Assembly: GCF_014334095.1 (NCBI RefSeq)
Contig: NZ_CP060495.1
Location: forward strand, 2,255,001 to 2,319,000
Length of the DNA stretch: 64,000 nt
Source: Novosphingopyxis iocasae
Lineage (GTDB): Bacteria > Pseudomonadota > Alphaproteobacteria > Sphingomonadales > Sphingomonadaceae
Direction: 5' to 3'
The notes under the pieces are model-generated. The model had not been told where the DNA came from, did no database searches, and was given only the letters and a program-made list of their open reading frames with translations. Each line of letters starts with the position of its first letter. Within the stretch, counting starts at the first letter, position 1. This document shows positions 39,575 to 55,782 of this stretch, in pieces. Position numbers and translations under genes: made by a program.

Positions 39575-41041
39575 TTATGGCTGCTGGATCACCGGTGTCA
39601 GGGGTTTGCGGATGATCGCGGGCGCATCGCGCCATCCGCCGCCCAGCGCCTCGAACACGCGCACCTGATCGGTGGCGACCTGCGCGCGCGCGCTGGCGAG
39701 TTCGGTCTTGGACTGGATCAGCGTGCGCTCGGCATCCAGCACATCTAGGAAGCCGGCGACCCCGCCCTTGTAGAGCCGCCGGACGTTGCGCGCAGCCAGC
39801 GCCGCATCCTCCTCCGCCAGCCGCAGATCTTCCGCCCGGTCCAGATCCTGCGCCAGGCGGGCCATGCTGGTTTCCGTCTCGCGCAGCGCGGTCAGCACGG
39901 TGCCGTCGAAATCGGCAAGCCGCGCTTCTGCCTGCGAATTTGCCGCAGCGAGCTGCGCCCGTGCGACGCTGCGATTGGGGAAGGTCCAGGTAAGTAGCGG
40001 ACCGATGCTCCAGCGAAAGGCGCGATCGCGCACGATATCCTCGATCTTCGTCGCGGTGGTGCCGATCGATGCGCCAAGGCTGATCGAGGGATAGAGATCG
40101 GCCGCTTGAACGCCGATCTGCGCGATCGACTGGGCCAGCCGCCGCTCTGCTTCCCGCACGTCCGGGCGGCGGCGCAGCAGCGCGCGTCCGTCCCCGGTGG
40201 GGATCGGATCGGCGAGAATCGGAGGCTCGGTGCAAGCCGCCGCCGCGCTCGGCTCGTTCTCGGGCAGATCGCCCGTCAGCGTTGCGAGCCGCAGCAGCGT
40301 GCTGCGGCGGTCGGTCAGCAGCGGCGGCAGCGATGCCTCGGTCTGGCGCAGCAGCGTGCGCGCGCGCACCACATCGTTGCGGCCCGTAATCCCCGCAGCG
40401 AAGCGCCGCTGCGTCACGTCCAGATTCTGCTGCGCCCGGCCGATCGCCTCCTTCTGCACCGCGATGCGCAGATTGGCCGAGCAGCTGTCGACATAAGCGA
40501 GCGTCGTCTGCGCAGCGACATTGACGCGGGCAAGATCGAGCGCCGCCAGCGCAGCTCCGGCATTGGCGTCCTGTGCCTCGACTCCGCGCTTCAGCCGCCC
40601 GAACAGGTCGAAATCGTAGGAGATCATTTCGCCCGCTTTATAGACGGGCCCCGGATCGAGCGCTTGCGGAGCGCCCACGGCATCAGCGGACTGCTGGCCA
40701 TAGGTTGGGTTGACGCTGAGCGATGTCTCCGGAAGCCGCCGCGCATCCGCCGCCCCCAGCAGTGCCAGCGCACGGGCCAGGTTCGCCGCCGCCGAACGCA
40801 GATCGGTGTTGTGGACCAGTGCTTTTTCGACGAGCGCATCCAGCGCCGGATCGCGATAGAGCTGCCACCAGTGGTCGGGCAGCGGCTGGCTGGTGAAGGC
40901 CGGTCCATTGTCGGACAGCTCGGGTGCCGGAGCCTCGCCGGTCAGCACCGGCGGCGTGCGATAGTCCGGCCCCGCCGTCTTGCATGCGGCCAGCGAGAGC
41001 AGCGCCGAAGCGGCCACCATCGCGGAGAGAATCTTCTTCAT
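39575..41041 (-). CDS. Outer membrane efflux lipoprotein (NodT family)
   Basis: A 488-residue outer-membrane factor. MKKILSAMVAASALLSLAAC is a lipoprotein signal peptide. Two outer membrane efflux repeats of long helices follow (DLRSAAANLARALALLGAADARRLPETS and LRRRPDVREAERRLAQSIAQIGVQAADLYPSISLGAS). RRPDVREAE is the family hallmark. It is the last gene of the FUSC/DUF1656/HlyD efflux operon, eight bases after the HlyD gene, and supplies the outer-membrane channel. Confidence 0.92.
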   Translation of the reverse strand: MKKILSAMVAASALLSLAACKTAGPDYRTPPVLTGEAPAPELSDNGPAFTSQPLPDHWWQLYRDPALDALVEKALVHNTDLRSAAANLARALALLGAADARRLPETSLSVNPTYGQQSADAVGAPQALDPGPVYKAGEMISYDFDLFGRLKRGVEAQDANAGAALAALDLARVNVAAQTTLAYVDSCSANLRIAVQKEAIGRAQQNLDVTQRRFAAGITGRNDVVRARTLLRQTEASLPPLLTDRRSTLLRLATLTGDLPENEPSAAAACTEPPILADPIPTGDGRALLRRRPDVREAERRLAQSIAQIGVQAADLYPSISLGASIGTTATKIEDIVRDRAFRWSIGPLLTWTFPNRSVARAQLAAANSQAEARLADFDGTVLTALRETETSMARLAQDLDRAEDLRLAEEDAALAARNVRRLYKGGVAGFLDVLDAERTLIQSKTELASARAQVATDQVRVFEALGGGWRDAPAIIRKPLTPVIQQP

Positions 41042-41049
41042 TGCCGCGC

Positions 41050-42006
41050 TCAGTCAGCCAAAGGCGGCTGGCCTTGGCGCAGCGTCGTTTTGGGGCGGGC
41101 GGGCGTCACGGGACGGCCCACCGTGCGACGCGGCACGGCGGTCGGCACGATGGTGACCGACGCCGTGCGCCCCGCGATCAGCCGCATATCGCCCGGAATC
41201 CGGTCGATTACGATGCGCACCGGCACGCGCTGGGCCAGGCGGATCCAGCTGAAGGTGGGCTGGATATTCGGCAGTTCGTTGTTCGAAGGCTGGCTCTCGC
41301 GGTCGTCGATCCCGCCGCTGATGCTGTCGACATGGCCCAGGATCGCGCGATCGTCATTGCCCAGCAGCGTGACGCGCGCCTTGTCCCCGATCCGGAACTC
41401 ATCGAGCTTCGTTTCCTCGAAATAGCCCACCACATAATAGCTGTCGGTATCCACCAGAGCGAACACCGGTTTGCCGGTCTGCACATAATCCCCCGGCCTG
41501 AGGCCGAGATTGGTGACGAGCCCGTTGACCCGGGCGCGCACGGTCGCGCGGTCCAGATCCAGCTCGGCCATCTCCCGATCGGCAATCTTCTGCCGCAGGT
41601 CCGCGCGCGCCAGTTGCACCGCCGTCGCGCGCTGATCGCGCACTTCGGCGGACACCAGATCGCCAAGCGACTGATAACGGGCCGAATCGCGCCGCGCATT
41701 GGCAAGCGAGGCGCGCGCATTCTCGATTCCCGCATCGACCTGCGCCAGTTTGGTCTGGAAACGCGCACGGTCGATCACGAACAGCGGGTCTCCGGCCTTC
41801 ACCGGTTGGTTGTCGCGCACCAGCACGTCGGTCACGATTCCGGATACATCGGCGCTGACTTCCACCACATCAACGCGCACCTTGCCGTCGCGCGTCCAGG
41901 GATCGGTCTCGTAATAGCGCCAGATCCAGACGACCGCCGCGATGGCGAGCGCCACCATCAGCAGGGTCAGCAAAATGCGGCCGATATGGGGAACCAGGCG
42001 GGTCAT
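41050..42006 (-). CDS. HlyD-family periplasmic adaptor (AaeA/EmrA-like)
   Basis: A 318-residue membrane fusion protein. There is one N-terminal transmembrane helix (ILLTLLMVALAIAAVVWIW), then a beta-barrel/lipoyl segment (VDVVEVSADVSGIVTDVLVRDNQPVKAGDPLFVID), a helical hairpin (about 80-150) and the second lipoyl half (RATVRARVNGLVTNLGLRPGDYV). It bridges the FUSC inner-membrane pump and the NodT-type channel encoded on either side. Length and order match E. coli AaeA. The C-terminus carries an unusual Thr/Pro/Arg-rich tail. Confidence 0.92.
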   Translation of the reverse strand: MTRLVPHIGRILLTLLMVALAIAAVVWIWRYYETDPWTRDGKVRVDVVEVSADVSGIVTDVLVRDNQPVKAGDPLFVIDRARFQTKLAQVDAGIENARASLANARRDSARYQSLGDLVSAEVRDQRATAVQLARADLRQKIADREMAELDLDRATVRARVNGLVTNLGLRPGDYVQTGKPVFALVDTDSYYVVGYFEETKLDEFRIGDKARVTLLGNDDRAILGHVDSISGGIDDRESQPSNNELPNIQPTFSWIRLAQRVPVRIVIDRIPGDMRLIAGRTASVTIVPTAVPRRTVGRPVTPARPKTTLRQGQPPLAD

Positions 42007-42018
42007 CCGAACCGCGCC

Positions 42019-42237
42019 TTAGCCCGAAGCAACGGGGTTAGGAAATAGCGCAACGATGGCGCCCGTCAGGATCAGGAACAGCGCCAGTTCGAAGAGCGGG
42101 CGGTTCCAGATGAAACGATAAAGCCGCAGCCGTGCGAGCAACCAGGACAGTAAGCCCGCAAGCAACAACCCGCCAAGAACCGCCGGGACGATGGTGGAAA
42201 TGCTGACCGTATCGCCGATGAGCCATTGGGTCGTCAT
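42019..42237 (-). CDS. DUF1656 membrane protein (AaeX-like)
   Basis: A 72-residue protein with two hydrophobic helices (IVPAVLGGLLLAGLLSWLLA and LFELALFLILTGAIVALF). DUF1656/AaeX proteins are almost always encoded between the FUSC pump and the HlyD adaptor of aromatic-acid efflux systems, as here. Their exact role is unknown. The start codon overlaps the stop of the FUSC gene (42234-42237). Confidence 0.88.
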   Translation of the reverse strand: MTTQWLIGDTVSISTIVPAVLGGLLLAGLLSWLLARLRLYRFIWNRPLFELALFLILTGAIVALFPNPVASG

Positions 42238-44306
42238 GCGCCCCCCGCTCCTTCTTCGGCAAAGGGCGTAACGCTGGGCGCCAGCGCGATGGTGAGCCCC
42301 ACCAGCGCGCGCAGCCTCTCAGGCTCCTTCGTGCCGTGCGAGTGCACCACGTCGCGAACCAGCTGCCGGGACAGCTCCAGCGGTTCGCGAGCCAGCCGGT
42401 CGCCGATCCTGAGCTGGCGGAATTCCTCGGCGATGCTTTGACGCAGCCGCCCGAAACGGTCCGCGAAATCGGGCGCGAACGCCTGATCCTGATTGCGTAG
42501 CGTCAGGAGGTTCAGCCCCACGCGCAGATCGTCGATCGCATCGACATGCTTCAGCGGCTCGCCGTCTTCCAGCATGTCGATCTCCGGCAGCGCCAGCGCC
42601 AGGCGATCGATCGTGAGCAGCAGAAAGCGGTTGCGGTCGGGCACGCGGCGCGCGGTGGCGAGATCGGCGATGTCGGTCCAGATCGCCCGGACCTGCCTTC
42701 GCGCCAGAAAGCGCGACCGGTTGTAGCTGAGGAGATGCAGCGAGGCGGCGGCGAAGGATACGCCCGCCCCGGCTGCGCCGAGGCTGAGCAGCGAACGCTC
42801 GAAATCTGCAGAATAGGCGTTCTGCAGGCCAAGAAATGCAAACCCCAGCACGCAGATGAGCAGGCCCGCGATCGTCATCGAATAGACCATGCCGAGCGGG
42901 AAGAGGGCAAGCGCCAGCACCGCCATCAGCGGCACGAAACTGCTCACCGTGGGAAGCACCGCGAAATTATAGGCAAAAACCAGCGCAAATGCGCAGGAAA
43001 ACCACATCACCAGCCCGATCACCGAGCGCATCTGCTGCGGTTTGCCCAGGATGAACACGCAGGACAGGAAGGCGAACAGCAGCGCGCCGCCCCCGCTCGC
43101 AAAGGCCGTCCAGTACCAAAGGCCCGCGACCCCGAACAAAGCGAGCGCCATCGGCGCGATGTCCCGCAGCGTGAGCAGATAATCATAGGCGCGCACGGGC
43201 CGGGCGGCCTTTGCATCCTCCAGCAGATGCCGGGGAAGCGCCTCATCCTGCCGGATCACCGCGATGAGCTTTCGAAAATCGCCCCAATGCCGCACGAACT
43301 GGGCGAGGCGGTCGCAATAGCCGATCTGGACCAGGCCGTTCCAGTCGGTGCGCTGCGCGAAGCGCTCCGCCGTCCGGTCGATCATGGTCAGGCAGTCCGC
43401 CTGCGTCCGCTCATCCTCCTCGTTCAACCAGCGCGCCACCGCGCCGATGGTGACCGCCAACGCCGGATCGGGGCCCCCGCCCTCGCGCAATTCCACGGTC
43501 CAGTCCTCCAGAGAGGCCATGTCCGAGATCAGATACATGATCGTGCGGCGCAGAATGTTGACGTCGCGGCGGCGCGGCGGCCGGTCCACGATGTCATAGG
43601 GCAGCTGGATGGCGAGCTGATCGAGATTCTGTACCGCGCCCACGAGACCCCGCAGCCGCTCCCGCACGTGGACCCGCTCTTGCCCGGGGTCCGAACCGCC
43701 ATCGACGCGGTTCAGAATGTCGGTCACCCAGCCGCGCGCCTTCTGGCGCCAGTCCTCCATATCGCTTTCGAACTGCGGCATGATGCGGGTGGGGGAAATC
43801 ACGCTGTCGACTGCCGCAACGGCGAGCACGGCGAGCGTGATTTCCGCCACCCGCGCCGCGGTGAGATCGAAAATCTGGTTTGGCTGCATCAAATTGTTGA
43901 AGGCGATGAAGCCGGCGGTCAGGCCGATCGTGAACCAGGTATAGGCGCGCGGCGTCCGGTCGATCATCCGGCCATAGACGGACGCCAGTACGATCAGAAT
44001 CGCGACGAACACCAGCATCGCCTCATGATCGGCGAACAGCGCCACCGCCGCCAGCACCGCGGCGCCGCCCAGCACGGTGCCCACCACACGATAGATCGCC
44101 TTGGTCCGGATCGCACCCGATTGCGGCTGCAGCATCACGATATAGACGGTGAGCGCGGACCAATAGGGATTGGCGAGGTTCTGGCTGAAGCCAATGAACA
44201 GCGCCAGCGTGGTTGCGATCAGCGCCTTGGCGGAGAAGATGGCATCGGATTTGGTCGGCCAGCGCAGCGCCTGCCATACTCCGGCGGGACTGAGCGGTGC
44301 TGCCAC
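42234..44306 (-). CDS. FUSC family inner-membrane efflux protein (AaeB-like)
   Basis: A 690-residue pump, probably for aromatic or other carboxylic acids. Two sets of transmembrane helices are visible, with FSAKALIATTLALFIGFSQNLANPYWSALTVYIVMLQPQSG at the N-terminus, the canonical FUSC entry, and a second set around LTLRDIAPMALALFGVAGLWYW. Cytoplasmic domains lie between and after them. GTG at 44306 is chosen because GGAAGGAAC (44313-44321) is ideally spaced; a TTG at 44363 would add 19 residues. It is the first gene of the four-gene efflux operon, 134 bases downstream of tetR. Confidence 0.9.
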   Translation of the reverse strand: MAAPLSPAGVWQALRWPTKSDAIFSAKALIATTLALFIGFSQNLANPYWSALTVYIVMLQPQSGAIRTKAIYRVVGTVLGGAAVLAAVALFADHEAMLVFVAILIVLASVYGRMIDRTPRAYTWFTIGLTAGFIAFNNLMQPNQIFDLTAARVAEITLAVLAVAAVDSVISPTRIMPQFESDMEDWRQKARGWVTDILNRVDGGSDPGQERVHVRERLRGLVGAVQNLDQLAIQLPYDIVDRPPRRRDVNILRRTIMYLISDMASLEDWTVELREGGGPDPALAVTIGAVARWLNEEDERTQADCLTMIDRTAERFAQRTDWNGLVQIGYCDRLAQFVRHWGDFRKLIAVIRQDEALPRHLLEDAKAARPVRAYDYLLTLRDIAPMALALFGVAGLWYWTAFASGGGALLFAFLSCVFILGKPQQMRSVIGLVMWFSCAFALVFAYNFAVLPTVSSFVPLMAVLALALFPLGMVYSMTIAGLLICVLGFAFLGLQNAYSADFERSLLSLGAAGAGVSFAAASLHLLSYNRSRFLARRQVRAIWTDIADLATARRVPDRNRFLLLTIDRLALALPEIDMLEDGEPLKHVDAIDDLRVGLNLLTLRNQDQAFAPDFADRFGRLRQSIAEEFRQLRIGDRLAREPLELSRQLVRDVVHSHGTKEPERLRALVGLTIALAPSVTPFAEEGAGGA

Positions 44307-44440
44307 CTCGCTGTTCCTTCCGCTGCCCCATGCGAGCTTCAGGATCGAAGACCGCACCCACAAACTTGCCTATGCCGCTTCAGCGCGCGCCACAACCGAA
44401 TTAGGATGGGGAGCGGAGTCCTTCGGGCTGCAGGAACAAC

Positions 44441-45082
44441 CTATCGGGCGTCTTCGGCTATCAGGAGCCGGCAAAACGGCATCGCGATTGCCACCAGATC
44501 AGTAATGGGTTCTTTGCATCCACGGGCGATCCAGCTTCTCGCAATCGCCAGAAGTCCGTGCATGGTGCCTGTTTCGCGAAGGGAGCGCGCCTCTGTATCG
44601 CGCCATTCGGGATCGAGGGTTTGCGCAAGCAATCGGGCGAATTTCGCAAGGCCCTGTTCGAATGCCGTATCGACGGCGGCGCTGATCCCCGACATCTCCG
44701 TCACGAACACGCGAGCGGCTGCGGGTTTTTCGCGCAGCAAGGCGTAATATGCGCTGAGCATGGCCTCCAGACGCGTTTCGGGTTCCGCGTCGTCCAGTTC
44801 GGATGCCGCGGCCTGCACGGTCTCGAGAGCGATCTGGGTGACCGCTTCATAGGCCGCGATCAAAAGCGCCTCGCTGTTCGCGAAAGATTCGTAGAAATAA
44901 CGCGGGGTCAGGCCGGCCGTCCGGCATACGTCCGCCACCGTGGTGTGGCGAAAACCCTGTTCGCCATAGGTATCGACGGCCGCCCAGATAAGCCGCTCCT
45001 GCCGCTCCGCCTGTCGTTCGCCCGACGACTGCCCGCCATAGGTCCGGCCCTGTCCGGTTCCGCTTGTCGTCGCTTTCGCCAA
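44441..45082 (-). CDS. TetR family transcriptional regulator
   Basis: A 213-residue repressor. The N-terminal HTH is AAVDTYGEQGFRHTTVADVCRTAGLTPRYFYESFANSEAL and the C-terminal ligand-binding domain is all-helical. It is transcribed divergently from the Baeyer-Villiger monooxygenase-hydrolase fusion gene across about 62 bases and in the same direction as the efflux operon downstream, so it may control both. The divergent tetR/BVMO arrangement resembles mycobacterial ethR-ethA. A short CCAT..ATGG dyad lies in the intergenic region, but no convincing long operator was found. Confidence 0.9.
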   Translation of the reverse strand: MAKATTSGTGQGRTYGGQSSGERQAERQERLIWAAVDTYGEQGFRHTTVADVCRTAGLTPRYFYESFANSEALLIAAYEAVTQIALETVQAAASELDDAEPETRLEAMLSAYYALLREKPAAARVFVTEMSGISAAVDTAFEQGLAKFARLLAQTLDPEWRDTEARSLRETGTMHGLLAIARSWIARGCKEPITDLVAIAMPFCRLLIAEDAR

Positions 45083-45144
45083 GTGATAACGTCCATTTCC
45101 AGATGGGAATCGATCTCGCCTCCTCTTGCCGATGGAACCCGAAA

Positions 45145-47757
45145 ATGGCCAGTGCTACCGAAACATCCCCTTCCCCCGCTTCCACCGATAGCGGCAGCGC
45201 AATCGAACGGTTCGATGTCCTGATCGTCGGCGCGGGGCTTTCGGGCATCGATGCGGGCTACCGCGTTTCCACCGAATGCCCGAACAAGAGCTATGCGATC
45301 CTCGAAGCGCGCGATGCGATCGGCGGGACGTGGGATCTCTTCCGTTATCCAGGCATCCGATCGGATTCGGACATGTACACGCTGGGCTTTCCCTTCCACC
45401 CCTGGCCGAGCAATCAGGCCATCGCCGATGGCGAGGCGATCCGCGACTATATCGTCGACACCGCGCAAAAATTCGGGATCGACCGGCATATTCGCTTCGG
45501 TTGCAAGGTGGTGGCGGCGCGCTGGTCCACCGAAGACGCCGAGTGGACGCTGGAGATCGATGAGAATGGCGAGAAGCGTCATGTCGCCTGCTCATTTCTC
45601 TACATGGGCAGCGGCTATTATGATTATGCGGGCGGCCATACGCCGCATTTCGAGGACGCGGCGACTTTCCGGGGGCAAATCGTCCATCCGCAGAAATGGC
45701 CCGAAAATCTGAATTATGCGGGCAAGCGCGTCGTCGTGATCGGCAGCGGCGCGACGGCGGTGACGCTGGTGCCCGCGATGGCGCAGACCGCAGAAAAGGT
45801 CACCATGCTGCAGCGCTCGCCGACCTATATCGTCGCACGCCCGTCGCAGGATGCCGTCTCCCGCTGGACGCACGAACATCTGCCGAAGCCGCTCGCCGAC
45901 GGCATTACCAAGTGGAAGAGCGTCGGGCTCGGCATCGCGACCTATGGCTATGCGCGGCGCAAGCCGGCGAAGGTCAAGGCCGCCATCCTCGATGGCGTGC
46001 GCGCACAGCTTCCCGACGGCTACCCCGTGGAACGCGATTTCGAACCGTCCTACAATCCGTGGGACCAGCGCATCTGCCTGGTGCCCGATGCCGATCTGTT
46101 CGACACCATCCGCAGTGGCGATGCCGAAATCGTCACCGATACGATCGAGCGTTTCACGCCCGAGGGCATCGCATTGACTTCGGGCAAGGAATTGCCCGCT
46201 GACATCATCGTCACCGCTACCGGGCTCACGCTCACCATGGTGGGAGGGGTGGAGCTGTACGTGGACGACGACCGCGTCGATCCTGCCGACCGGCTGGTTT
46301 ATAAGGGCATGATGCTGGAAGGCGTGCCGAATATGGCGCTCGCCTTCGGATATACGAATGCCAGCTGGACGCTGAAATGCGACCTGTCAGCGCGCCATGC
46401 CTGCCGGTTGATCAATTATCTCGACGCGCACGACAAGGTGGCCTGCCTGCCGCGCCGCGCGCATTCGGGGATCGAGCCCGAGCCGATGCTGGACTTCAGC
46501 TCCGGCTACGTTCAGCGTGCGGCAAATGTGCTGCCGAAGCAGGGATCGGAAGCACCGTGGAAACTGCACCAGAATTATGCGCTCGATCTCGCTTCGCACA
46601 AGCTGTCGCCCGTCGCCGACGGCACGATGCGTTTCATCGAAGCAGGGCAGGCGCTGGACGACGCGGTTGCGCCCAAGTCGAAGCGCAAGCCGATGGCTTT
46701 GGCCGCAGCCGTCGGGACCGCTGCGGTCGGCACCGCGCTGCTCACACGGAGTCAAAGCATGCATGACGAATCAACCGAGAATAGGGAAACGGCGTTGACC
46801 TCAGCGAAGCGGATCGGCGGCGGCGCTCTGCTGGCCGGGCTTGTGGGAGGTGCCGCTCTTGCCGGTTTTGCCGCCTTGGCCCGTTCGCGGGCGGAAGCGG
46901 CGGTGCCTGCCGATGGCCAGTTCGTCCGCGTAAACGGCAAGCGCGTGCATTACCGGGACGAAGGATCCGGCCCTGTGGTCGTGATGATCCATGGCCTTGC
47001 CGGACAGATGCGTAATTTCTCCTACGCGCTGCTCGACAAGCTGGCGAGCGATCACCGCGTGATCCTGATCGACCGTCCGGGGTCTGGCTATTCCGACCCG
47101 ATCGACAGCGCCACGATCCGCAGCCAGGCGGCGCATATTGGCGATGCTCTGCAGGCGCTGGGTCTCGACCGGCCACTGGTGGTCGGCCACTCGCTGGGCG
47201 GCGCCGTTGCGCTCGCTCTCGCGCTCGATCGGCCGGACGCGGTTGGTGGTCTCGCTCTCGTGTCACCGCTCACCCACCCCTTGACCGATGTTTCGCCAGC
47301 ATTCGACGGGCTGGCCATTGCCTCGCCCGCCGCGCGCTTTGCCGTGGCATGGACCCTGGCAGCCCCGATGATGATGATGCGCGGTGAGAAAGGGGCGCAG
47401 GCAGCGTTCGCCCCCGAACCGCTGCCCGGCGATTTCGCGACGCGGGGCGGCGGGGCCTTGCTGGCCCGCCCGGGCAATTTCCAGGCGGCAAGCGCCGACC
47501 TCAATGCCGCGCCGACAGATTTGCCCGGCATGGTATCACGCTATCCCTCGCTCGCGATGCCAGTATCGATCCTGTTCGGCCACGACGATCCGGTGCTCAA
47601 CCCGGAAACGCAGGGGGAAGCCTTCGCGGCAGCCGTCCCCGGTGCCGATCTTACGGTGATCGATGGGGGGCATATGATACCGGTAACGCAGCCTGACGTG
47701 GTCGCCGACTGGATTCGCAAACGCGTCGGTAATTCCGGCGCTGGTAAAGCCGAGTGA
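45145..47757 (+). CDS. EthA-type Baeyer-Villiger monooxygenase fused to an alpha/beta hydrolase
   Basis: An 870-residue bifunctional enzyme. Residues about 20-510 resemble mycobacterial EthA: FAD motif GAGLSG (29-34), EARDAIGGTWDLFRYPGIRSD, the Baeyer-Villiger fingerprint FRGQIVHPQKWP (175-186) and NADP motif GSGATA (200-205). A linker with two hydrophobic stretches (about 520-535 and 555-578) leads to an alpha/beta hydrolase with MIHGLAGQMRN oxyanion region, VVGHSLGG nucleophile Ser683, FGHDDP Asp and GGHMIP His (near 842). One domain could form an ester from a ketone and the other cleave it. An internal ATG at 46759 could allow separate hydrolase production. It overlaps the next gene by GTGA. 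Confidence 0.9.
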   Translation: MASATETSPSPASTDSGSAIERFDVLIVGAGLSGIDAGYRVSTECPNKSYAILEARDAIGGTWDLFRYPGIRSDSDMYTLGFPFHPWPSNQAIADGEAIRDYIVDTAQKFGIDRHIRFGCKVVAARWSTEDAEWTLEIDENGEKRHVACSFLYMGSGYYDYAGGHTPHFEDAATFRGQIVHPQKWPENLNYAGKRVVVIGSGATAVTLVPAMAQTAEKVTMLQRSPTYIVARPSQDAVSRWTHEHLPKPLADGITKWKSVGLGIATYGYARRKPAKVKAAILDGVRAQLPDGYPVERDFEPSYNPWDQRICLVPDADLFDTIRSGDAEIVTDTIERFTPEGIALTSGKELPADIIVTATGLTLTMVGGVELYVDDDRVDPADRLVYKGMMLEGVPNMALAFGYTNASWTLKCDLSARHACRLINYLDAHDKVACLPRRAHSGIEPEPMLDFSSGYVQRAANVLPKQGSEAPWKLHQNYALDLASHKLSPVADGTMRFIEAGQALDDAVAPKSKRKPMALAAAVGTAAVGTALLTRSQSMHDESTENRETALTSAKRIGGGALLAGLVGGAALAGFAALARSRAEAAVPADGQFVRVNGKRVHYRDEGSGPVVVMIHGLAGQMRNFSYALLDKLASDHRVILIDRPGSGYSDPIDSATIRSQAAHIGDALQALGLDRPLVVGHSLGGAVALALALDRPDAVGGLALVSPLTHPLTDVSPAFDGLAIASPAARFAVAWTLAAPMMMMRGEKGAQAAFAPEPLPGDFATRGGGALLARPGNFQAASADLNAAPTDLPGMVSRYPSLAMPVSILFGHDDPVLNPETQGEAFAAAVPGADLTVIDGGHMIPVTQPDVVADWIRKRVGNSGAGKAE

Positions 47758-48842
47758 CACCCTCCGGCATGACGCGCGATCGGATCTGCGTGATCCCGGG
47801 GGAAGACGCCGCTGCCGAAGCGGTTATGCACGTTCTTGCCGTGTTGAAGGCACTCGATACCGGTCTCGACTGGCATGTGTGCGAGAACACGTCCACTATC
47901 GGAGAGGACGGCCGGCCGCAGCTGGCTGCCGAAGCGAAAGCGGCGATCGACAGCAGCCGGGCAACGCTGTTCGGGGCCACCGGTGGGCCCAATTCCGCCG
48001 CGCTGTTTTATCTACGCTGGGGCAAGCAGACCTTTGCCAATGTTCGCCCCACGCGGTGGAGCGAGGGCATGCCGAGCCCGCTGGCCAAGCCCGAGGGCAT
48101 CGATCTCGCGATCGTGCGGGAAAACCTCGAAGATGCCTATGTCCTGATCGAAGGCGATCTGCCGCAGCTCGCCCCGCTGAAGCTCAGGAGCCGCACCGCC
48201 GGGATCGGCCCGGAAGCGATGGGCGAGGGGGCATTTTCGGTAAAGGCGATCACCCGCGAAGGCTCGCTCCGCGTCGCGCGCTTTGCCTTCGAACTTGCGC
48301 GCCAGCGCAAGGCCGCAGGCGGCGCGGGGCGGGTGACGGCGAGTGCGAAATACAACATGCAGCCGCGCACCGATGGCCTGTTCATCGAGTGTGCTAACGA
48401 GGTCGCGAACGACTTTCCCGATATCGACTTCGACGTTCTGATCGTGGACGATTGCGCCCACCGGATCGTGCGCGATCCGCAGCGCTTCGACGTGCTGTTA
48501 TTGCCCAATCTCTACGGCGATATCCTGTCCGACGCGGCGGCGGGATTGACCGGCGGTCTCGGGCTGGCGGCAAGCGGCTGTTACGGCGCGGATTACGCCT
48601 ATTTCGAGTCCGCGCACGGCACCGCCCCCGATATTGCGGGCAAGGGCATCGTGAACCCCGTCGCCACACTGCTGTCCGCTGCGATGCTGCTCGACTATTG
48701 CGACCGTGCGCTGATTGCAGCCTCGCTGCGCAAAGCGATCGACCGTCTGCATGAAGACGGCCGCGTCCTGACGCCCGATGTCGGCGGCATCGCCTCGACC
48801 GCGCAGGTCTGCGATGCCGTATTGGAGCATATGCAGATATGA
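47754..48842 (+). CDS. Isocitrate/isopropylmalate dehydrogenase family protein (LeuB/IDH-like)
   Basis: A 362-residue NAD-dependent beta-decarboxylating dehydrogenase. ATLFGATGGP, the VRENLEDAYVLIEG loop, ASAKYNMQPRTDGLF (catalytic Lys region), NLYGDILSDAAAGLTGGLG and ESAHGTAPDIAGKGIVNP are family motifs. Details (VDDCAHRIVRDPQRFDVLLLPNLYGD) look closer to NAD-isocitrate or tartrate dehydrogenases than to true LeuB, so the substrate is probably another 2-substituted 3-hydroxy acid. GTG start at 47754 overlaps the monooxygenase-hydrolase stop; ATG at residue 6 is also possible. Its stop overlaps the leuC-like start. Confidence 0.88.
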   Translation: MTPSGMTRDRICVIPGEDAAAEAVMHVLAVLKALDTGLDWHVCENTSTIGEDGRPQLAAEAKAAIDSSRATLFGATGGPNSAALFYLRWGKQTFANVRPTRWSEGMPSPLAKPEGIDLAIVRENLEDAYVLIEGDLPQLAPLKLRSRTAGIGPEAMGEGAFSVKAITREGSLRVARFAFELARQRKAAGGAGRVTASAKYNMQPRTDGLFIECANEVANDFPDIDFDVLIVDDCAHRIVRDPQRFDVLLLPNLYGDILSDAAAGLTGGLGLAASGCYGADYAYFESAHGTAPDIAGKGIVNPVATLLSAAMLLDYCDRALIAASLRKAIDRLHEDGRVLTPDVGGIASTAQVCDAVLEHMQI

Positions 48843-50239
48843 CGATGGACCAGAGCCTGTTCGAGAAACTCTGGGCGCTCCACCGGGTCGAGGTACTCGA
48901 AGGCGCCCGCGATCTGATCGCTATCGACCTGCATCTGCTCCACGACTTGAGTGGCCCCGGCGCGCTCAATGCGCTGAAGAAGCGTGGCATGGCCGTCGCC
49001 GCGCCCGGACAGACCTTTGCCGTTCCCGATCATGGTGTCGGGACCATGCCCGGGCGCGGGGACGACAGCAGCGAGGCGAGCCGCAAGACGCTGCAACCGC
49101 TGCGGCGCCTGTGCGCGGACATGGGCGTCACGCTGTTCGACCTCGACTCCGAAGAACAGGGGATCGTGCATGTGATCGGCCCGGAACAGGGGCTGACGCT
49201 GCCCGGGCTCTCGATTGTGTGCGGCGACAGCCATACCTGCACGCAAGGTGCCTTCGGTGCGCTCGCATGGGGAATCGGATCGACCGAGATACTCCAGGTG
49301 CTCGCCACGCAGATGCTGATCCTCGAAAAGCCGAAATCGATGCGCGTGACGATCGACGGCACGCTGGCGGACGATGTCGATGCGAAGGATCTGATCCTTG
49401 CGATCATCGGTCGCTGGAGCGCGGAAGGCGGGGCGGGTCACGTGATCGAATTCGCCGGGTCGGCGGTGCGGGCGCTCGGCATGGAAGCGCGGATGACGCT
49501 GTGCAATCTGGCGGTCGAATTCGGCGCGCGCTTCGGATTGATCGCGCCCGACGAGACGACCTTCGATTACCTGCGTGGCCGTCCTTTCGCGCCGCGAGGC
49601 GATGCTTGGGATACCGCGCTTTCGCACTGGCGCACGCTGCCCTCTGATCCCGACGCTCGCTTCGATGCGGAACTGCATCTCGATGCAAACGACGTCGTGC
49701 CGCACATCACCTGGGGCGTATCGCTCGATCAGGTTGCGCCTGTCACCGGAGCAATTCCCGAGGAGCCAAGCGATGCAGCGGGCGCCAAGGCCCACCGCCA
49801 AGCGCTGGATTATATGGGACTGGAAGCGGGCAGCAGGATCGCATCGACCCCGATCGACCGCGTCTTCATCGGTTCTTGCGCGAATGGAAGGCTGTCCGAT
49901 CTCGAGCGGGCAGCGCAGGTCGTCGCCGGGCGGCGTGTCGCAGACGGGGTCGAGGCGTGGGTTGTTCCGGGATCGCGGTCCGTAAATCGCGCTGCTCAGG
50001 AGCGCGGTCTCGATGCCGTATTTCGCGAGGCGGGCTTCGAGTGGCGCGAGCCGGGCTGTTCGATGTGCTTGGCGATGAACGGCGATCAGGTCGCCAGAGG
50101 AGAGCGCTGCGTATCCACCTCGAACCGCAACTTCGTCGGGCGGCAGGGGCCGGGCGCCCGAACGCACGTCACCGGTCCCGCGGTCGCGGCAGCCAGCGCG
50201 ATATTGGGACGCATCGGCACGCCGGGAGAGCTGGCATGA
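48839..50239 (+). CDS. LeuC-like aconitase-family dehydratase, large subunit
   Basis: A 466-residue [4Fe-4S] hydro-lyase subunit. CGDSHTCTQGAFGALAWGIGSTE, the cluster cysteine in GSCANGRLSDLERAA, and CSMCLAMNGD near the C-terminus give the three cluster ligands. Length equals 3-isopropylmalate dehydratase large subunit. It is paired with a LeuD-like subunit directly downstream and a dehydrogenase upstream. No isopropylmalate synthase is in the cluster, so a leucine-pathway role is doubtful and another 2-alkylmalate-type substrate is plausible. ATGA overlaps at both ends. Confidence 0.9.
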   Translation: MTMDQSLFEKLWALHRVEVLEGARDLIAIDLHLLHDLSGPGALNALKKRGMAVAAPGQTFAVPDHGVGTMPGRGDDSSEASRKTLQPLRRLCADMGVTLFDLDSEEQGIVHVIGPEQGLTLPGLSIVCGDSHTCTQGAFGALAWGIGSTEILQVLATQMLILEKPKSMRVTIDGTLADDVDAKDLILAIIGRWSAEGGAGHVIEFAGSAVRALGMEARMTLCNLAVEFGARFGLIAPDETTFDYLRGRPFAPRGDAWDTALSHWRTLPSDPDARFDAELHLDANDVVPHITWGVSLDQVAPVTGAIPEEPSDAAGAKAHRQALDYMGLEAGSRIASTPIDRVFIGSCANGRLSDLERAAQVVAGRRVADGVEAWVVPGSRSVNRAAQERGLDAVFREAGFEWREPGCSMCLAMNGDQVARGERCVSTSNRNFVGRQGPGARTHVTGPAVAAASAILGRIGTPGELA

Positions 50240-50853
50240 ACGAGGCATACCCACCTGTGCTGGATTCGCTGGCGGTGGTTCTCCGGCTCGAGAATGTCGA
50301 CACCGACGTCATCACGCCCATCGGTCGCGTGCTGGAAGGGCCGCAGGCGATCGTCGACTATGCGTTCGAACCGCTGCGCTTTGCCGATGACGGCACCAGG
50401 CGCGCCGACGATCCCTTCGCCGACCCCGATCGGCAAAATGCGCAGATCCTGATCGCCGGGCGCAATTTCGGTTGCGGCAGCAGCCGCGAGACGGCGGCGC
50501 AGGCGATCAGGGGCATGGGCTTTCGCTGCGTCATCGCGCCCAGCTTCGGCGATATCTTCTACTCGAACTGCCTGAAGAACGGCGTGCTCGCCATCGCGCT
50601 CAGCAGCCGGGAGGTCGAGCGGATCATGGACTCGGCGGACGAGCTTTCGCGGATCGTCGTGAGGCTGCCCGAACAGCGGATCGAGCTGGACGGGCATGTC
50701 GCCCAGTTCGAAATCGACCCCCTATCGAAGCGCATGCTCCTGGGCGGGATAGACGAGATCGGTTTACTGCAAGGTTACGCGGAAGCGAAGGCGGACTTCG
50801 ATCGCGCAGATGCGGCGGCGCGGCCGTGGGTCCGCCCCCGCAAGCGCAAATAA
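50236..50853 (+). CDS. LeuD-like aconitase-family dehydratase, small subunit
   Basis: A 205-residue swivel-domain subunit partnering the LeuC-like protein. It has NVDTDVITPIGRVL (LeuD usually has NVDTDQIIP), GRNFGCGSSRETAAQAI (substrate loop), and the FGDIFYSNCLKNGVLAI segment. The start at 50236 is set by an ATGA overlap with the leuC-like stop. It is the last gene of the tight operon. The DNA composition changes just beyond its stop codon. Confidence 0.9.
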   Translation: MNEAYPPVLDSLAVVLRLENVDTDVITPIGRVLEGPQAIVDYAFEPLRFADDGTRRADDPFADPDRQNAQILIAGRNFGCGSSRETAAQAIRGMGFRCVIAPSFGDIFYSNCLKNGVLAIALSSREVERIMDSADELSRIVVRLPEQRIELDGHVAQFEIDPLSKRMLLGGIDEIGLLQGYAEAKADFDRADAAARPWVRPRKRK

Positions 50854-51131
50854 CAATTTCCCCAGGTTTTTCCAGCAAACCGGAATGGCAACGCAGCTTT
50901 CATTTCATGGCGAGCGACCATGTGGGTGTCTGTTTGCTTATCTCCAGCCATGGAAAGGCGGAAGCGGTGTCCGATGCACAGCGCGACGAATCCTTGCGCT
51001 TCTAAGGCCACCAGAATGCCGGCAAGCATGGCGGCTGTTATCTGAAAACCCCCAAGAAACAGCACGCTTAATCCAATTTGAATAGCTAGATATTCTTTTG
51101 ATCGAAAGGCTGCAACCTCCGGAAACCAGCA
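50854..51131. other. Gene-poor junction between core-like DNA and the accessory region
   Basis: The 278 bases after the leuD-like gene hold no convincing gene. A minus-strand frame (51065 to about 50850, beginning MLFLGGFQITAAMLAGILVALEAQ) has a hydrophobic N-terminus but runs into the leuD-like gene and cannot be assigned; it may be a decayed gene end. GC content starts to fall here. No tRNA, integrase or direct repeat was found. Confidence 0.5.
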
Positions 51132-51542
51132 TTATTCCGCGATCTGTTGCGCGAAGTGTGCTTCAGTCTTCAGCTTGCACCGGCCTGATTGCTCCAGTGA
51201 CTTAACGACCGATTGCCCGGCCACTGTTGAGAATTGTTGAGGTGCACGCAAGTAGTCACCTCTCGCCGCTGGAGTTCGCATAAAGCGCCGCGCCTTTTGA
51301 GGAACGGTTAGGGGAACCGGTGCGCGAACTAGGGAGAAATCAATACGATCAAAGCCAAATGGCGGACACGGAGGGATTCGCTCCAAGCCCCCAGGTCGTT
51401 CGGAATATTGCTTTTCTGCTATCCACTCGTCGTCAGATACCCCCAGGGATACCCCGTTTTTGTTAAAATCGAACTCAATGTCCTGAGCGAGTGATTTACG
51501 TGCGACAGTTGAGTACCATGAGAAGGTAGCTTTGCACCCCAA
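51132..51542 (-). CDS. Hypothetical protein
   Basis: A 136-residue frame starting with TTG at 51542 and without a clear ribosome binding site. The sequence (DIEFDFNKNGVSLGVSDDEWIAEKQYSERPGG...PPFGFDRIDFSLVRAPVPLTVPQKARRF) looks protein-like and soluble but matches no family I recognise. Base composition is lower in GC than the genes to the left. It is oriented away from the methylase-mcrBC operon. It may be a fragment or a genuine accessory gene. Confidence 0.35.
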   Translation of the reverse strand: MGCKATFSWYSTVARKSLAQDIEFDFNKNGVSLGVSDDEWIAEKQYSERPGGLERIPPCPPFGFDRIDFSLVRAPVPLTVPQKARRFMRTPAARGDYLRAPQQFSTVAGQSVVKSLEQSGRCKLKTEAHFAQQIAE

Positions 51543-51723
51543 TTTCGGTCATTCCAAACCCATCAAAGCCTTCCCGAGAGCAGTCTTCGTATCGCCGGCT
51601 TAGATGGGGCTGTTTGGATTAATTGGCAATCGGGAGCTTGCGCTACCTGCAGAAAAATCAGCATGCTATTTGGATTCGAACTCCCCGTCGGCTAACCCGG
51701 TCGGCACAGATTGATGGGGCATC

Positions 51724-52785
51724 ATGGCGATCGAGTATATCGGCAACAAAGCGCAGCTTGTAGATCGTATGTGGGAGTGCATGCGCGGACACCTTCGTGA
51801 AAAGCCAAAGGGGTTTGCAGACTTATTTTGCGGCACTGCGTCCGTTAGCCAGTTCATGCGCGCTCGCGGCTTCCGGGTGACCGCCAACGATAGCTTGCTG
51901 CTCTGCTCGACGTTCGCAGAAGCGGCCTTGCTGACAGAAATTCCGCCGAGCTTTGTCGGGCTTGCTCAGGCGGGTGTGCTGGTAGCTCCTCCGAAATGCC
52001 GCTACGCGGAACTGCTTAGGATTCTCAATGGCCTTTCTCCGGTCGAAGGATTCATGTTTAGAACCTATTCGCCAGCCTCCCTTCGCCATGGGGCCAACGA
52101 AGCGAGAATGTACTTTACCGAGGAAAATAGCGGTAGGCTGGATGCGATGCGCCATCAGATTGCGCAGTGGCGTCCCGATATCACGACGGCAGAGCACGCA
52201 CTTCTTCTTGTCGATCTCGTCAAGGCCGCGAACCGAGTTAGCAATATTGCCGGGACTTACGGCTGTTATCTTAAGGACTGGAAAACCCGAGCCCTGCAGT
52301 CCGTCGTGGTGACAGAGAGCAGACTCTCGTTCAGCGGCCCGAGGGGCGAAGTCTTTCGTCAGGATGCGCTTGACCTTGTGCAAAAGGTCGAAGCCGAGGT
52401 CATTTACGCTGATCCGCCATATACTAAGCGTCAATACGCGGCCTACTACCATCTTCTTGAGACCCTGGTTGCCGGAGATGAGCCGAAGGTGACCGGTTCC
52501 ACGGGACTCAGGCCATGGGAGCACGCGGCTTCGGATTTCTGTTATCGGCGCAAAGCGCCTGGTGCGCTTCGCGACCTGGTCCTCAACTTGAAAGAGGGCT
52601 CGGACTTCTTCCTAAGCTACAATGAAGACGGACAGATACATCACGACGAGATCGTCAAAATCCTTAGCGAGCGCGGCAAAGTTACTGTGAACGAATTCGC
52701 ATTGCGCCGCTACAAGAGCAGTAACCTGCCGCATAAAGGCCGCCAAGTTGCGGAGCGCCTCTACCACGTTAAAGCGAGCGCGTAA
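51724..52785 (+). CDS. D12-class DNA adenine methyltransferase (Dam-like)
   Basis: A 353-residue N6-adenine DNA methyltransferase. MAIEYIGNKAQLVDRMW is the D12 N-terminus, FADLFCGTASVSQFMR is SAM motif I, and VIYADPPYTKRQY is the catalytic DPPY motif IV. The long central part between them is the target recognition region. It begins the defence operon; its TAA stop is two bases before the mcrB start. In this context it probably protects host DNA from the McrBC-type nuclease next door, an inference from gene order. Confidence 0.9.
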   Translation: MAIEYIGNKAQLVDRMWECMRGHLREKPKGFADLFCGTASVSQFMRARGFRVTANDSLLLCSTFAEAALLTEIPPSFVGLAQAGVLVAPPKCRYAELLRILNGLSPVEGFMFRTYSPASLRHGANEARMYFTEENSGRLDAMRHQIAQWRPDITTAEHALLLVDLVKAANRVSNIAGTYGCYLKDWKTRALQSVVVTESRLSFSGPRGEVFRQDALDLVQKVEAEVIYADPPYTKRQYAAYYHLLETLVAGDEPKVTGSTGLRPWEHAASDFCYRRKAPGALRDLVLNLKEGSDFFLSYNEDGQIHHDEIVKILSERGKVTVNEFALRRYKSSNLPHKGRQVAERLYHVKASA

Positions 52786-52787
52786 CA

Positions 52788-54428
52788 ATGGCCCTTGTAG
52801 CTATCGATGCTATTCTTTGGCGACGTCTTCAACAGGCTAACTATGATAGTTTAGACGGGGTGTCGGCGGGGCAATATGATATTCGCCTCGGACGCGACGA
52901 TGATGTGGCGACTTTTTTCGATGGGGTCCCCCAGCTCAACCCAACCAATTTGGGCGGGTACGATTTAAAAGTACCTATTGCGGCCTTCGATGGGGCAAGT
53001 CCGGTTCCCCAGGCGGAGCTTCGCGTACGTTTTATGGGGCCGCGATCACAGCGAAAAGACTGGAACATCCCATCGCAGCGGCCTGACACGGCCTATCCGC
53101 TCTGGCGCCTAAGCCGCAGCAGTCCAAACCGGTCGACCGAAAACTTTGTGATTATTGCTCGGGATGTGCTCGGACGTTTTCACGCGCGGTGGTTGGATGC
53201 GGCGGCTGTGGCTGCCCTACCAGAGCAAATCCGGAAGGCATTACGTTCTCAGAAGAATATGGGGGTTGAGTTCATGGCTGTCACTCAGCACGCGGAAGAG
53301 GCTGTCCGCATCTCGGACAAGCTTCTCGCCAGTCACAACGTCCTCCTTTACGGGCCGCCGGGGACGGGCAAGAGTCACTTGATGTGGGAAACCGCAAAGG
53401 CGTTCGGGCGTGATCCGGTGCAGATAGACACCGCCGATGAAGCCCAACCGCTCAAAGGAGGTGGTGCGGCGCTGGACCCTATCGTGCGCTGGGTAACTTT
53501 CCATCAGACCTACGGTTACGAGGACTTCATCATCGGCCTGAGACCCGATCCGTCCTCGGTGCAGGCGCTGAGTCTCAAGGCATTTCCGGGGATTTTGCTC
53601 GAGCTTGCCGAAGTGGCGCGCGCGACCGGCCGGCCCGCCGTCCTTCTGATCGACGAGATCAATCGCGGCAACGTGTCGCGCATCTTCGGCGAGTTCATTA
53701 CGCTGCTGGAACCGGACAAGCGCCTGGGCGGCGATGGAAATGAGACAGAGACGACTGTTCCAATCAGTCTTCCCTATGTCGATGCCGACACCGTGGTCAG
53801 TGTCGATGGACAAGACCTGCCCGTCCTAAAGCGATTTGTTCTGCCCGCTAACATTTACCTGTTGGCCAGCATGAACTCGGTGGACCGTTCCGTCGCCCCC
53901 CTCGATGCGGCCCTTCGACGTCGGTTCCGGATCGTGAACCTCGATCCTGACTTGGAGGCGCTCCAGGCAGAATTCGCACGGCGGCCTCCGACGGGCAGCG
54001 CAGAGGACGTAGCGGAGGTAGTTAGGCTCCGGACCCTCGCCACAGACCTGCTTTCTCATCTCAACGAGGGCATCTCGGCCTTTCGTGGGCCGGACTATCG
54101 GCTTGGGCAGTGGTATCTCGCCGACTTGCTCAAGGCGACCAACCAAGCTGACGCTCGCTCGGTCTTGGTCGGAATCTGGGAAGAGAAGCTTCAGCCGCAT
54201 CTAGAAGACGTCTTCCACGGACGCGTCGAGCAGCTCGCGGCCCTGATCGGGGAAGACGGACCGATCCGCCTTTCGGACCCCCCGTCCAACTACGAAAGCG
54301 CAGGCGCTCGGCCATTCGTCAACCGCAAGCTGCTCTCACCGGAGCAGACGTTGGCCTTTTTGGAGCGGCTGACCTCGGCGGCGCCGAATGCGCCGACCGG
54401 CGCGCCGGCCTCGAATTCAGCTCCGTGA
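52788..54428 (+). CDS. mcrB: McrB-like AAA+ restriction GTPase
   Basis: A 546-residue motor subunit. An N-terminal domain of about 150 residues (putative DNA recognition, no EVE or DUF3578 signature recognised) precedes a McrB-type AAA+ domain with Walker A YGPPGTGKSHL (about 189-196), Walker B VLLIDEINRGNVSRIFGE (about 285-300) and LLASMNSVDRSVAPLDAALRRRF, the McrB MNxxDRS GTPase motif with arginine finger. It would drive translocation with the McrC nuclease encoded next. It ends within the start of mcrC. Confidence 0.92.
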   Translation: MALVAIDAILWRRLQQANYDSLDGVSAGQYDIRLGRDDDVATFFDGVPQLNPTNLGGYDLKVPIAAFDGASPVPQAELRVRFMGPRSQRKDWNIPSQRPDTAYPLWRLSRSSPNRSTENFVIIARDVLGRFHARWLDAAAVAALPEQIRKALRSQKNMGVEFMAVTQHAEEAVRISDKLLASHNVLLYGPPGTGKSHLMWETAKAFGRDPVQIDTADEAQPLKGGGAALDPIVRWVTFHQTYGYEDFIIGLRPDPSSVQALSLKAFPGILLELAEVARATGRPAVLLIDEINRGNVSRIFGEFITLLEPDKRLGGDGNETETTVPISLPYVDADTVVSVDGQDLPVLKRFVLPANIYLLASMNSVDRSVAPLDAALRRRFRIVNLDPDLEALQAEFARRPPTGSAEDVAEVVRLRTLATDLLSHLNEGISAFRGPDYRLGQWYLADLLKATNQADARSVLVGIWEEKLQPHLEDVFHGRVEQLAALIGEDGPIRLSDPPSNYESAGARPFVNRKLLSPEQTLAFLERLTSAAPNAPTGAPASNSAP

Positions 54429-55782
54429 TCGCAAATTGACTGACGTAATCCTTCGCGAGGGGCAGCGGGTCAGGCTGTTCGACATCCTGCCTGCCGGAGT
54501 TTCGCAGTCGACTGCAATGGCGGAGGCTGCCAGCAAGAGTCAGAAACTGAAGAATGCTCTCAATCTGCGCGCCGGGCCGCTCAGCCTGGTCTACGAGGGC
54601 AGCACGCTGGTCCTTCAAATCACTGGAATTGTCGGTTCGCTCCGCCTTTTCGGAGTGCGGGTCGAGATCCTTCCAAAGTTCGGAGACGACAGGAGCTGGC
54701 ACGACAACGTCATGATGTTGCTGGCTCGCGCTCATGGCGCCAAGTTCGACCTGCAGGAGCTTCGAGGAACCGATCGCGACCGGCTAAGCTTCGTCGATCA
54801 CGTCGCCCAAGCCTTCTCGACAGCGCTGGACGCGGGCCTGCTCGACGGACCCATCGAGACATACCGGGACATTATGTATCGGGCACCCGTCGCGAAGGGA
54901 CGAATCGACATTTCCCGGACGGTGACGGCGGCCCTTTGCTCTCCCGGCACGATCGTCTCTTGGACAAGCGAGCTGGATGCGGACAATCCCTACAACCGCG
55001 TACTCCACGCCGCGGCGGACATCCTATTGAGGCTCGTAACAAACCGGGATGTCCGCGCCGCGCTTCAGCGATCAAGGGACGAGCTCCCCCCCTTGCCGCA
55101 GGGGCTCCCACCGCCGGTCCGCTGGCCGGACCGGCCTCCGCTGCAGTTCGTTGGCTACGCAGAAGCGCTGGAGATAGCTTCGGCGGTTCTTCAAGGGCGA
55201 GACTGGGGAATCGGTCCAGCGGCGAGCACCGCTTTCGGCTATGTCGTCGGGATGGAGAAGCTGTTCGAGAAATTTGTGGAGAGTAGCTTGCGGCAGGCGG
55301 TCAAATTGTTGCCCTTATCATTGGAAGCCTCCGCACGAAGTCAGGCAAGGACTTTATTCGCGCAGCCGGAGACGCCGGGGCGCAAGGCCTATTTCACAAC
55401 ACCGGACAATGTGGTGGATGTAGGAGGCCGTCCGACCATCATCGTAGATGCCAAATATAAGCGTTTCGCCGATGCCGAAACGGGCGATGCCAGACGGCCA
55501 TCCAACGCCGACGTGTATCAGATGTTCGCGTCTATGGCGGCCCAGGGGTGCCGAGTGGCTCTCCTCATATACCCTTCGTCCGTCGACCTTGCCGGTCCCC
55601 CGCCCACCTGGCGAATGAAAGTTGGCAAGGAGGATGCTTTCGTCGTGGCGGCCGGAATTCCCATTTCCGATCTTCGGACTAGTGCGGACCTGAATTCTGT
55701 GGATCTGGCGCTGGCGCAACAGTGTCTGCATCTCCTTACGCTCGTAAACGAATATGATGGAGCCCCCGTGAATGTCGCGTGA
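54388..55782 (+). CDS. mcrC: McrC-like restriction nuclease subunit
   Basis: A 464-residue nuclease partner of McrB. The N-terminal McrC barrel contains LRLFGVRVEILPKFGDD. The C-terminal PD-(D/E)xK nuclease has VDVGGRPTIIVDAKYKRFAD, giving the Asp and DAKYK catalytic core, with the preceding helix Glu in FEKFVESSLR. The start at 54388 overlaps mcrB by 41 bases; a TTG at 54436 (LTDVILREGQRVRLFD) would remove the Arg-rich leader and fits the McrC N-terminus well. Its 3' end overlaps the next methyltransferase gene by 11 bases. Confidence 0.9.
   Translation: MRRPARRPRIQLRDRKLTDVILREGQRVRLFDILPAGVSQSTAMAEAASKSQKLKNALNLRAGPLSLVYEGSTLVLQITGIVGSLRLFGVRVEILPKFGDDRSWHDNVMMLLARAHGAKFDLQELRGTDRDRLSFVDHVAQAFSTALDAGLLDGPIETYRDIMYRAPVAKGRIDISRTVTAALCSPGTIVSWTSELDADNPYNRVLHAAADILLRLVTNRDVRAALQRSRDELPPLPQGLPPPVRWPDRPPLQFVGYAEALEIASAVLQGRDWGIGPAASTAFGYVVGMEKLFEKFVESSLRQAVKLLPLSLEASARSQARTLFAQPETPGRKAYFTTPDNVVDVGGRPTIIVDAKYKRFADAETGDARRPSNADVYQMFASMAAQGCRVALLIYPSSVDLAGPPPTWRMKVGKEDAFVVAAGIPISDLRTSADLNSVDLALAQQCLHLLTLVNEYDGAPVNVA

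Follow-up and report, generated by a model that had tools for sequence, protein, structure and literature searches.

In a stretch of 64,000 nucleotides from Novosphingopyxis iocasae (hereafter the window; positions 2,255,001 to 2,319,000 of contig NZ_CP060495.1, which makes up a single-contig genome of 3.19 Mb listed as 100% complete), we characterized an operon of four contiguous open reading frames (ORFs) on the forward strand. They code for a Baeyer-Villiger monooxygenase (BVMO) fused to an esterase and for three proteins resembling LeuB, LeuC and LeuD (hereafter the trio), of 870, 362, 466 and 205 residues, respectively, without internal stops. These identities, given in a preliminary description made from the DNA letters, were upheld by profile searches.

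The BVMO-esterase gene (45145..47757) is followed by those for a LeuB-like, NAD-type beta-decarboxylating dehydrogenase (47769..48842), the LeuC-like large subunit of an aconitase-family isomerase (48839..50239) and its LeuD-like small subunit (50236..50853). The preliminary description had all four genes overlapping by GTGA or ATGA, which is correct for two of the three junctions, the LeuC-like and LeuD-like starts at 48839 and 50236 each lying within an ATGA overlap. At the first junction, a GTGA overlap exists only if the LeuB-like gene starts at GTG 47754. ATG 47769, which leaves an 11-nt gap after the BVMO gene, appears to be the likelier start because the alignments of relatives begin at query residues 6-11 in 36 of 50 cases (1-5 in 13 and 61 in one), which is weak evidence for the choice of a start codon, and because an ATG is found at the matching place in a homologous locus of another genus (L116, see below). 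A gene for a TetR-family regulator (44441..45082, reverse strand; PF00440, 32.1 bits for a cut-off of 24) diverges from the operon, and the 62-bp intergenic region (45083..45144) presumably harbours the promoters and a putative operator.

Leucine genes elsewhere in the genome

The genome codes for three PF00180 proteins, namely a canonical LeuB, the LeuB-like protein of the operon and a presumed isocitrate dehydrogenase, and for three PF00330 proteins, a presumed aconitase, a canonical LeuC and the LeuC-like protein. The only match to PF00682, the signature of LeuA-type synthases, is the leuA product of a canonical leuA-leuC-leuD-leuB cluster located away from the operon (L117). The operon proteins share 33% (LeuB), 54% (LeuC) and 37% (LeuD) identity with their counterparts in the genome. 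The trio is a second, separate LeuBCD-like set without a synthase of its own: as the preliminary description had noted, there is none in the operon, and no second PF00682 protein was found in the genome. That description considered a role in leucine biosynthesis unlikely, unless the genome proved to have no other leuB, leuC or leuD or all three proteins grouped within canonical LeuBCD. Separate leucine genes do exist, and the LeuB-like and LeuC-like proteins fall outside the sampled canonical sets. The full leuACDB cluster and the placement of the LeuB-like protein outside the LeuB clade rule out that this is the main leucine operon, and a role of the trio other than leucine synthesis appears well supported by these sequence comparisons.

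A distinct clade of beta-decarboxylating dehydrogenases

The LeuB-like protein has the catalytic Arg, Tyr, Lys and Asp residues of the PF00180 superfamily. R88, R98, R122, Y129, K199, D232, D256 and D260 (numbered from the GTG start), which we take to be the catalytic positions of the superfamily, are invariant in all 54 sequences of its clade. W89, G90 and T93 are invariant there too, as is the Asp in the cofactor loop, which is of the NAD type. It reaches none of the curated equivalog cut-offs, with 235.3 bits for homoisocitrate dehydrogenase (HICDH; NF040626, cut-off 540), 229.2 for isocitrate dehydrogenase (IDH; PRK08997, cut-off 510), 179.4 for tartrate dehydrogenase (TDH; TIGR02089, cut-off 470.4) and 161.6 for LeuB (TIGR00169, cut-off 353.2). 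The earlier view that it is closer to isocitrate and tartrate enzymes than to LeuB is thus borne out for the former; its tartrate score is weaker, though above that for LeuB.

In a careful tree of 45 sequences, hand-picked from the 107 of a quick tree, the 16 sampled members of the clade are on one branch (support 100/100), apart from the LeuB, TDH/DmlA and IDH sequences and one HICDH, and grouping the window protein with the eight canonical LeuBs was rejected (approximately unbiased test, p-AU 8.6e-5). Pp_TDH, Ps_TDH and Ec_DmlA form a different clade, also with 100/100 support. In the quick tree, which was built from aligned segments with duplicates kept and five loci with short or no hits omitted, the clade has 96% support in the Shimodaira-Hasegawa-like approximate likelihood ratio test, and the window protein pairs with that of locus L036 (87), a pairing that the 45-sequence tree leaves unresolved. 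The protein is not a LeuB, given both its sub-cut-off score and its placement, and the same two lines of evidence rule out a tartrate/D-malate dehydrogenase. A homoisocitrate or NAD-isocitrate dehydrogenase was likewise rejected, as the cut-offs are missed and the HICDH and IDH sequences lie outside the clade.

Homoisocitrate and NAD-isocitrate dehydrogenases are nevertheless its nearest solved relatives. The predicted model (predicted local distance difference test score, pLDDT, 89) best matches the structures of NAD-IDH and HICDH, in agreement with the sequence search, the nearest solved structures being 3asj, 1x0l and 6m3s, and the VREN.E motif is shared. The differences from these enzymes are the scores far below their cut-offs, the clade-specific W89, G90 and T93, and position 85, which is Phe in the window protein, Leu in the eight LeuBs and Arg in Thermus HICDH, where it presumably binds the distal carboxylate.

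A genome scan with patterns from the window peptide, which under-samples distant relatives, yielded 50 loci with relatives at 47-59% identity, titled as Pseudomonadota, Myxococcota, Binatota and Chloroflexota metagenome-assembled genomes (MAGs). The 249 genomes searched in the family gave 12 further matches at E 1e-40, all outside the clade, and 385 genomes of the class contain three other members (G559, G476 and G373). A plasmid search returned 290 records at E 1e-30, none at 60% identity or more and the best at 45%. A haloarchaeal plasmid of Halomarina (L021, 6001-9798) codes for a 45% relative outside the clade, near a convergent aconitase-type pair (31% to LeuC and 38% to LeuD).

A paralogous pair of isomerase subunits

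In a LeuC tree of 36 sequences, from which a very long Halomarina sequence was dropped, the window protein and those of L036, L052, G1052, G1064 and G1069 form a six-member clade (100/98). The next branch outside (seven sequences, 96/93) holds the canonical LeuC of the same genome. Pairing the window protein alone with this LeuC was rejected (p-AU 4.2e-5), which rules out a recent duplication of leuC. E36, V37, T38 and F43 of the EVTSPQAF segment are invariant in the 29 other LeuCs and all replaced in the window protein; no sequence of the six-member clade retains V37 or T38, and E36 and F43 are each replaced in five of the six. By these residues and by its placement among other LeuCs, the LeuC-like protein stands apart from LeuCD. 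Cys347, Cys407 and Cys410, presumably the cysteines of the Fe-S cluster, are invariant in all six. Searching 398 genomes of the phylum at E 1e-175, a cut-off that excludes relatives at up to 56% identity (E 1.4e-161), returned the genome itself only.

The LeuD-like protein groups with the partners of this clade. In a tree of the LeuDs that could be reached from the LeuC loci, a set without those of G1064 and G1069, the window, L036, L052 and G1052 proteins are together (91/97) and the first two form a pair (100/98), with long branches flagged. Relative to the leucine enzymes (EC 1.1.1.85 and 4.2.1.33), the trio comprises the same three families and keeps the three Fe-S cysteine positions, but its LeuB-like protein is outside the LeuB clade, its LeuC-like protein is in a paralogue clade, it has no LeuA and a canonical set is present elsewhere.

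The trio recurs in other genomes

The three genes are adjacent in three other genomes, in the order B-C-D in L036 and L223 and C-D-B in L052. In L223 (G1069, 8621-9148), part of the interior of the LeuB-like gene is missing, the substrate helix with it, through decay or an assembly error, and the LeuC/D-like genes are open. In G1064 and G1052, the LeuC/D-like and LeuB-like genes are on different contigs. The genome of L052 codes for canonical-type LeuC, LeuD and LeuB proteins besides its trio.

Among the 90 genomes of the class of L036, 19 have a LeuB-like gene (18 at E 1e-95 or better and the partial one of G1069), as set by match strength (49-62% identity, next best at most 45%) and not by placing each in a tree. 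Four have a LeuC-clade match, at a cut-off that could miss distant members, and all four belong to the 19. The hypergeometric p for this is 0.0015; it rises to 0.036 when the two genomes initially identified by way of the LeuB-like gene are removed, kinship being ignored in both calculations. As to the co-occurrence of the four genes, which the preliminary description proposed to check, the trio recurs in three genomes, with no BVMO gene beside it in the flanks examined, and a trace of the cassette is found in a second genus (see below).

Several other genes were found next to members of these families. In L222 (6220-7857; G1064), a divergent gene for a FAD_binding_2 (PF00890) flavoprotein adjoins the LeuC/D-like pair. 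Amidohydrolase-type genes adjoin several of the dehydrogenase genes or that of the LeuC paralogue, in L080 (5228-6373) and L212 (10618-11892) on the basis of PF04909, in L023 (5114-5974) from the annotation and in L024, L025 and L026 by eye.

The BVMO-esterase and traces of an ancestral cassette

The first protein of the operon consists of a BVMO domain (approximately residues 18-500; Pfam FMO-like), a linker with hydrophobic stretches (approximately 516-580) and an alpha/beta-hydrolase domain (approximately 590-865; Abhydrolase_1). FxGxxxHxxxW[PD] is the defining fingerprint of Type I BVMOs, to which the protein belongs, as it harbours this motif at position 175 and two Rossmann motifs at 29 and 200; the hydrolase domain has a GHSLG elbow at 681. 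BVMO plus esterase is also the arrangement of the Gordonia acetone route. AlmA of A. baylyi is reportedly a BVMO whose substrates are aliphatic ketones (PMC12449030). AlmA-type ketone cleavage by a BVMO and an esterase resembles the present case in the fingerprint, in the hydrolase for the ester and in the nearby TetR gene; unlike there, both domains are here in one 870-residue chain with a hydrophobic linker.

On plasmids, none of the 48 records matching the full-length protein covers 80% of it. Acinetobacter plasmid proteins match at approximately 45%, none of them being named AlmA. A Deinococcus plasmid protein annotated as an alpha/beta hydrolase matches the BVMO in its C-terminal part, and is for this reason presumably a fusion in the opposite order; on a Streptomyces plasmid, the BVMO match lies beside genes for a hydrolase, a TetR regulator and an acyl-CoA ligase.

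In 298 genomes of the family, the sole other full-length copy among the matches listed is that of G100, from another genus (86% identity over residues 1-869). In G051, of the same genus as N. iocasae, the best match spans residues 20-525 only. Genomic homology with G100 (L116) extends from within the TetR gene through the BVMO gene (window 44460-47778, 82.7% identity), the regulator gene being kept with the BVMO gene and the intergenic region largely conserved. It reaches the start of the LeuB-like gene and then jumps straight to the tail of the LeuD-like gene, a scar followed by an open gene for a major facilitator superfamily (MFS) transporter. A blastn comparison of a 400-base piece of L116 with window 47701-51800 aligned L116 16190-16362 with 50754-50926 (71%, E 5.7e-21). 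In the window, only an N-terminal stump of the MFS gene remains (50854..50930), with approximately 29 aligned codons (tblastn, 29 residues, 41%, E 0.005), and unrelated DNA follows. The best-scoring models for the G100 transporter are those of carriers of L-lactate and of bile salts, and it stays under the cut-offs of both.

On a search at E 1e-40, G100 had a BVMO but no LeuB-like protein, and the BVMO-LeuBCD junction seemed unique to N. iocasae; the scar overturned this. As it joins a LeuB start to a LeuD tail, the linkage is older than this genome, and since the cassette is found again in another genus, where a deletion has left this scar, the four genes evidently belong together. The simplest history would be an ancestral cassette made of the TetR gene followed by those for the BVMO-esterase, LeuB, LeuC, LeuD and the MFS transporter, with the trio lost in G100 and the transporter lost here. 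The scar could instead be an assembly error.

Flanking genes

Beyond the TetR gene and on the same strand, window 39575-44363 codes for a FUSC-family protein, an HlyD-type adaptor (nearest to AaeA, under the cut-off) and, as judged by eye, an outer-membrane-type protein. These genes do not match the G100 stretch examined. On the other side, a restriction-modification block of lower G+C content starts approximately 0.8 kb past the MFS stump. It comprises a D12 adenine methylase, an McrB-like AAA ATPase, McrC and an Eco57I-type methylase (window 51724-58264), in a right flank whose ORFs are covered in part by the annotation.

A candidate catabolic pathway and its alternatives

Beta-decarboxylating dehydrogenases and LeuCD-type isomerases are the enzymes of a few well-known pathways, those of leucine, the tricarboxylic acid cycle, lysine, coenzyme B and tartrate. 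Following the chemistry of these families, the trio would isomerise and oxidatively decarboxylate a substituted malate, and the shared cassette makes it plausible that the product of the BVMO feeds it. We propose, with a probability of roughly one half, that the operon is what is left of a catabolic cassette, under TetR control and moving between genera, in which a ketone would be cleaved and a malate with a side chain other than isopropyl would be isomerised and oxidatively decarboxylated. In its ancestral form, the MFS transporter, related to monocarboxylate carriers, would have imported a carboxylate, a step lost here. The BVMO domain would then convert a ketone to an ester, which the fused esterase domain would split into an acid and an alcohol. 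Next, the LeuC-like/LeuD-like [4Fe-4S] hydro-lyase would interconvert the 2- and 3-substituted forms of the non-isopropyl malate, and the LeuB-like dehydrogenase would use NAD+ to oxidise and decarboxylate the 3-substituted form, giving a 2-oxo acid for central metabolism. A more tentative suggestion is that all this amounts to a new catabolic pathway, in which ketone cleavage by the fused BVMO-esterase would yield a substituted malate, or a compound leading to one, and a dedicated LeuCD-like isomerase and a new class of NAD-dependent beta-decarboxylating dehydrogenases would convert it to a 2-oxo acid.

A number of observations weigh against these proposals. No BVMO gene is found beside the trio in the examined flanks of L036, L052 and L223, and G100 keeps the BVMO-esterase after losing the trio; as each half occurs without the other, they need not form one pathway. 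LeuC/D genes adjoin the LeuB-like gene in just two of the 50 scanned loci, many of which are short MAG contigs, where failure to see a neighbour does not prove that it is absent, and three of 34 genomes reached through the LeuB-like gene have a paralogue-clade LeuC, three best hits being unplaced in the tree. In 21 of 63 loci, the LeuB-like gene is adjoined by a divergent gene of one sequence cluster, which may represent a second, different partner for the dehydrogenase clade. The one examined (L076) is of the TauD/TfdA family, and these loci, including L041 and L079, are mostly titled Gammaproteobacteria or Pseudomonadales. Position 85 is not uniform, with Phe in 29 of the 54 clade sequences, Gly in nine, Asn in five and Arg in three, so substrates may differ within the clade. 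Both isomerase subunits score above the NCBIfam thresholds for leuC and leuD (TIGR00170, 591.8 bits for 560.25; TIGR00171, 129.3 for 116.25). Lastly, a canonical-type LeuB but no second LeuC was found in the MAG of L036 (G1024), so the LeuC-like protein of this genome might take part in leucine synthesis, provided that the MAG is complete.

The separate occurrence of the two halves speaks for a different explanation, in which one regulator controls two independent functions, the BVMO-esterase degrading or detoxifying ketones and the trio handling an unrelated malate-type acid. Relatives of the BVMO domain abound in the family, 213 of the 298 genomes having a match at E 1e-90 with listed identities mostly of 46-59%, and the Deinococcus and Streptomyces plasmids have a BVMO with a hydrolase but without LeuBCD. 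This explanation is a serious contender, though well short of an even chance. Against it, the ancestor from which both genera received these genes had them in order as one cassette.

It is unlikely that the trio is a redundant or backup leucine set that in special circumstances converts 2-isopropylmalate to 2-ketoisocaproate. The scores of its isomerase subunits, above the leuC and leuD cut-offs, and the MAG of L036 speak for such a role, but the LeuB-like protein scores far under the LeuB threshold and falls outside that clade, the EVTSPQAF segment is altered, the genome of L052 retains canonical-type enzymes besides its trio, and there is no second leuA in the genome.

A third explanation draws on HphCD and HphB, which are reportedly paralogues of LeuCD and LeuB. 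These enzymes, an isomerase and a dehydrogenase, work on benzylmalate, a non-isopropyl malate (PMC12961565); we liken the trio to them by enzyme kind. A biosynthetic extension of 2-oxo acids as in the HphBCD module for homophenylalanine, with a synthase borrowed from another family or the single LeuA, would agree with the enzyme kinds and with a hydrophobic or aromatic residue at position 85, but it is very improbable, as HphABCD needs HphA, neither the operon nor the genome has a dedicated alkylmalate synthase (the one PF00682 match being the canonical leuA), and the BVMO, the TetR regulator and an MFS transporter nearest to monocarboxylate carriers look catabolic.

The catabolic cassette that we favour would match no published pathway among the titles surveyed, in part, from one open literature library, in line with the preliminary description, which knew of none for this gene set. 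If it is confirmed, the LeuB-like clade would represent a new substrate class of the IDH/isopropylmalate dehydrogenase superfamily: a widespread group of dehydrogenases that score below every curated equivalog and are partnered in some genomes with LeuCD paralogues of their own. Annotation with the NCBI models would label both isomerase subunits as leucine enzymes, so such a pathway would stay hidden. One cassette adds a probable ketone-cleaving enzyme to the dehydrogenase and the LeuCD paralogues, and it is small enough for direct testing.

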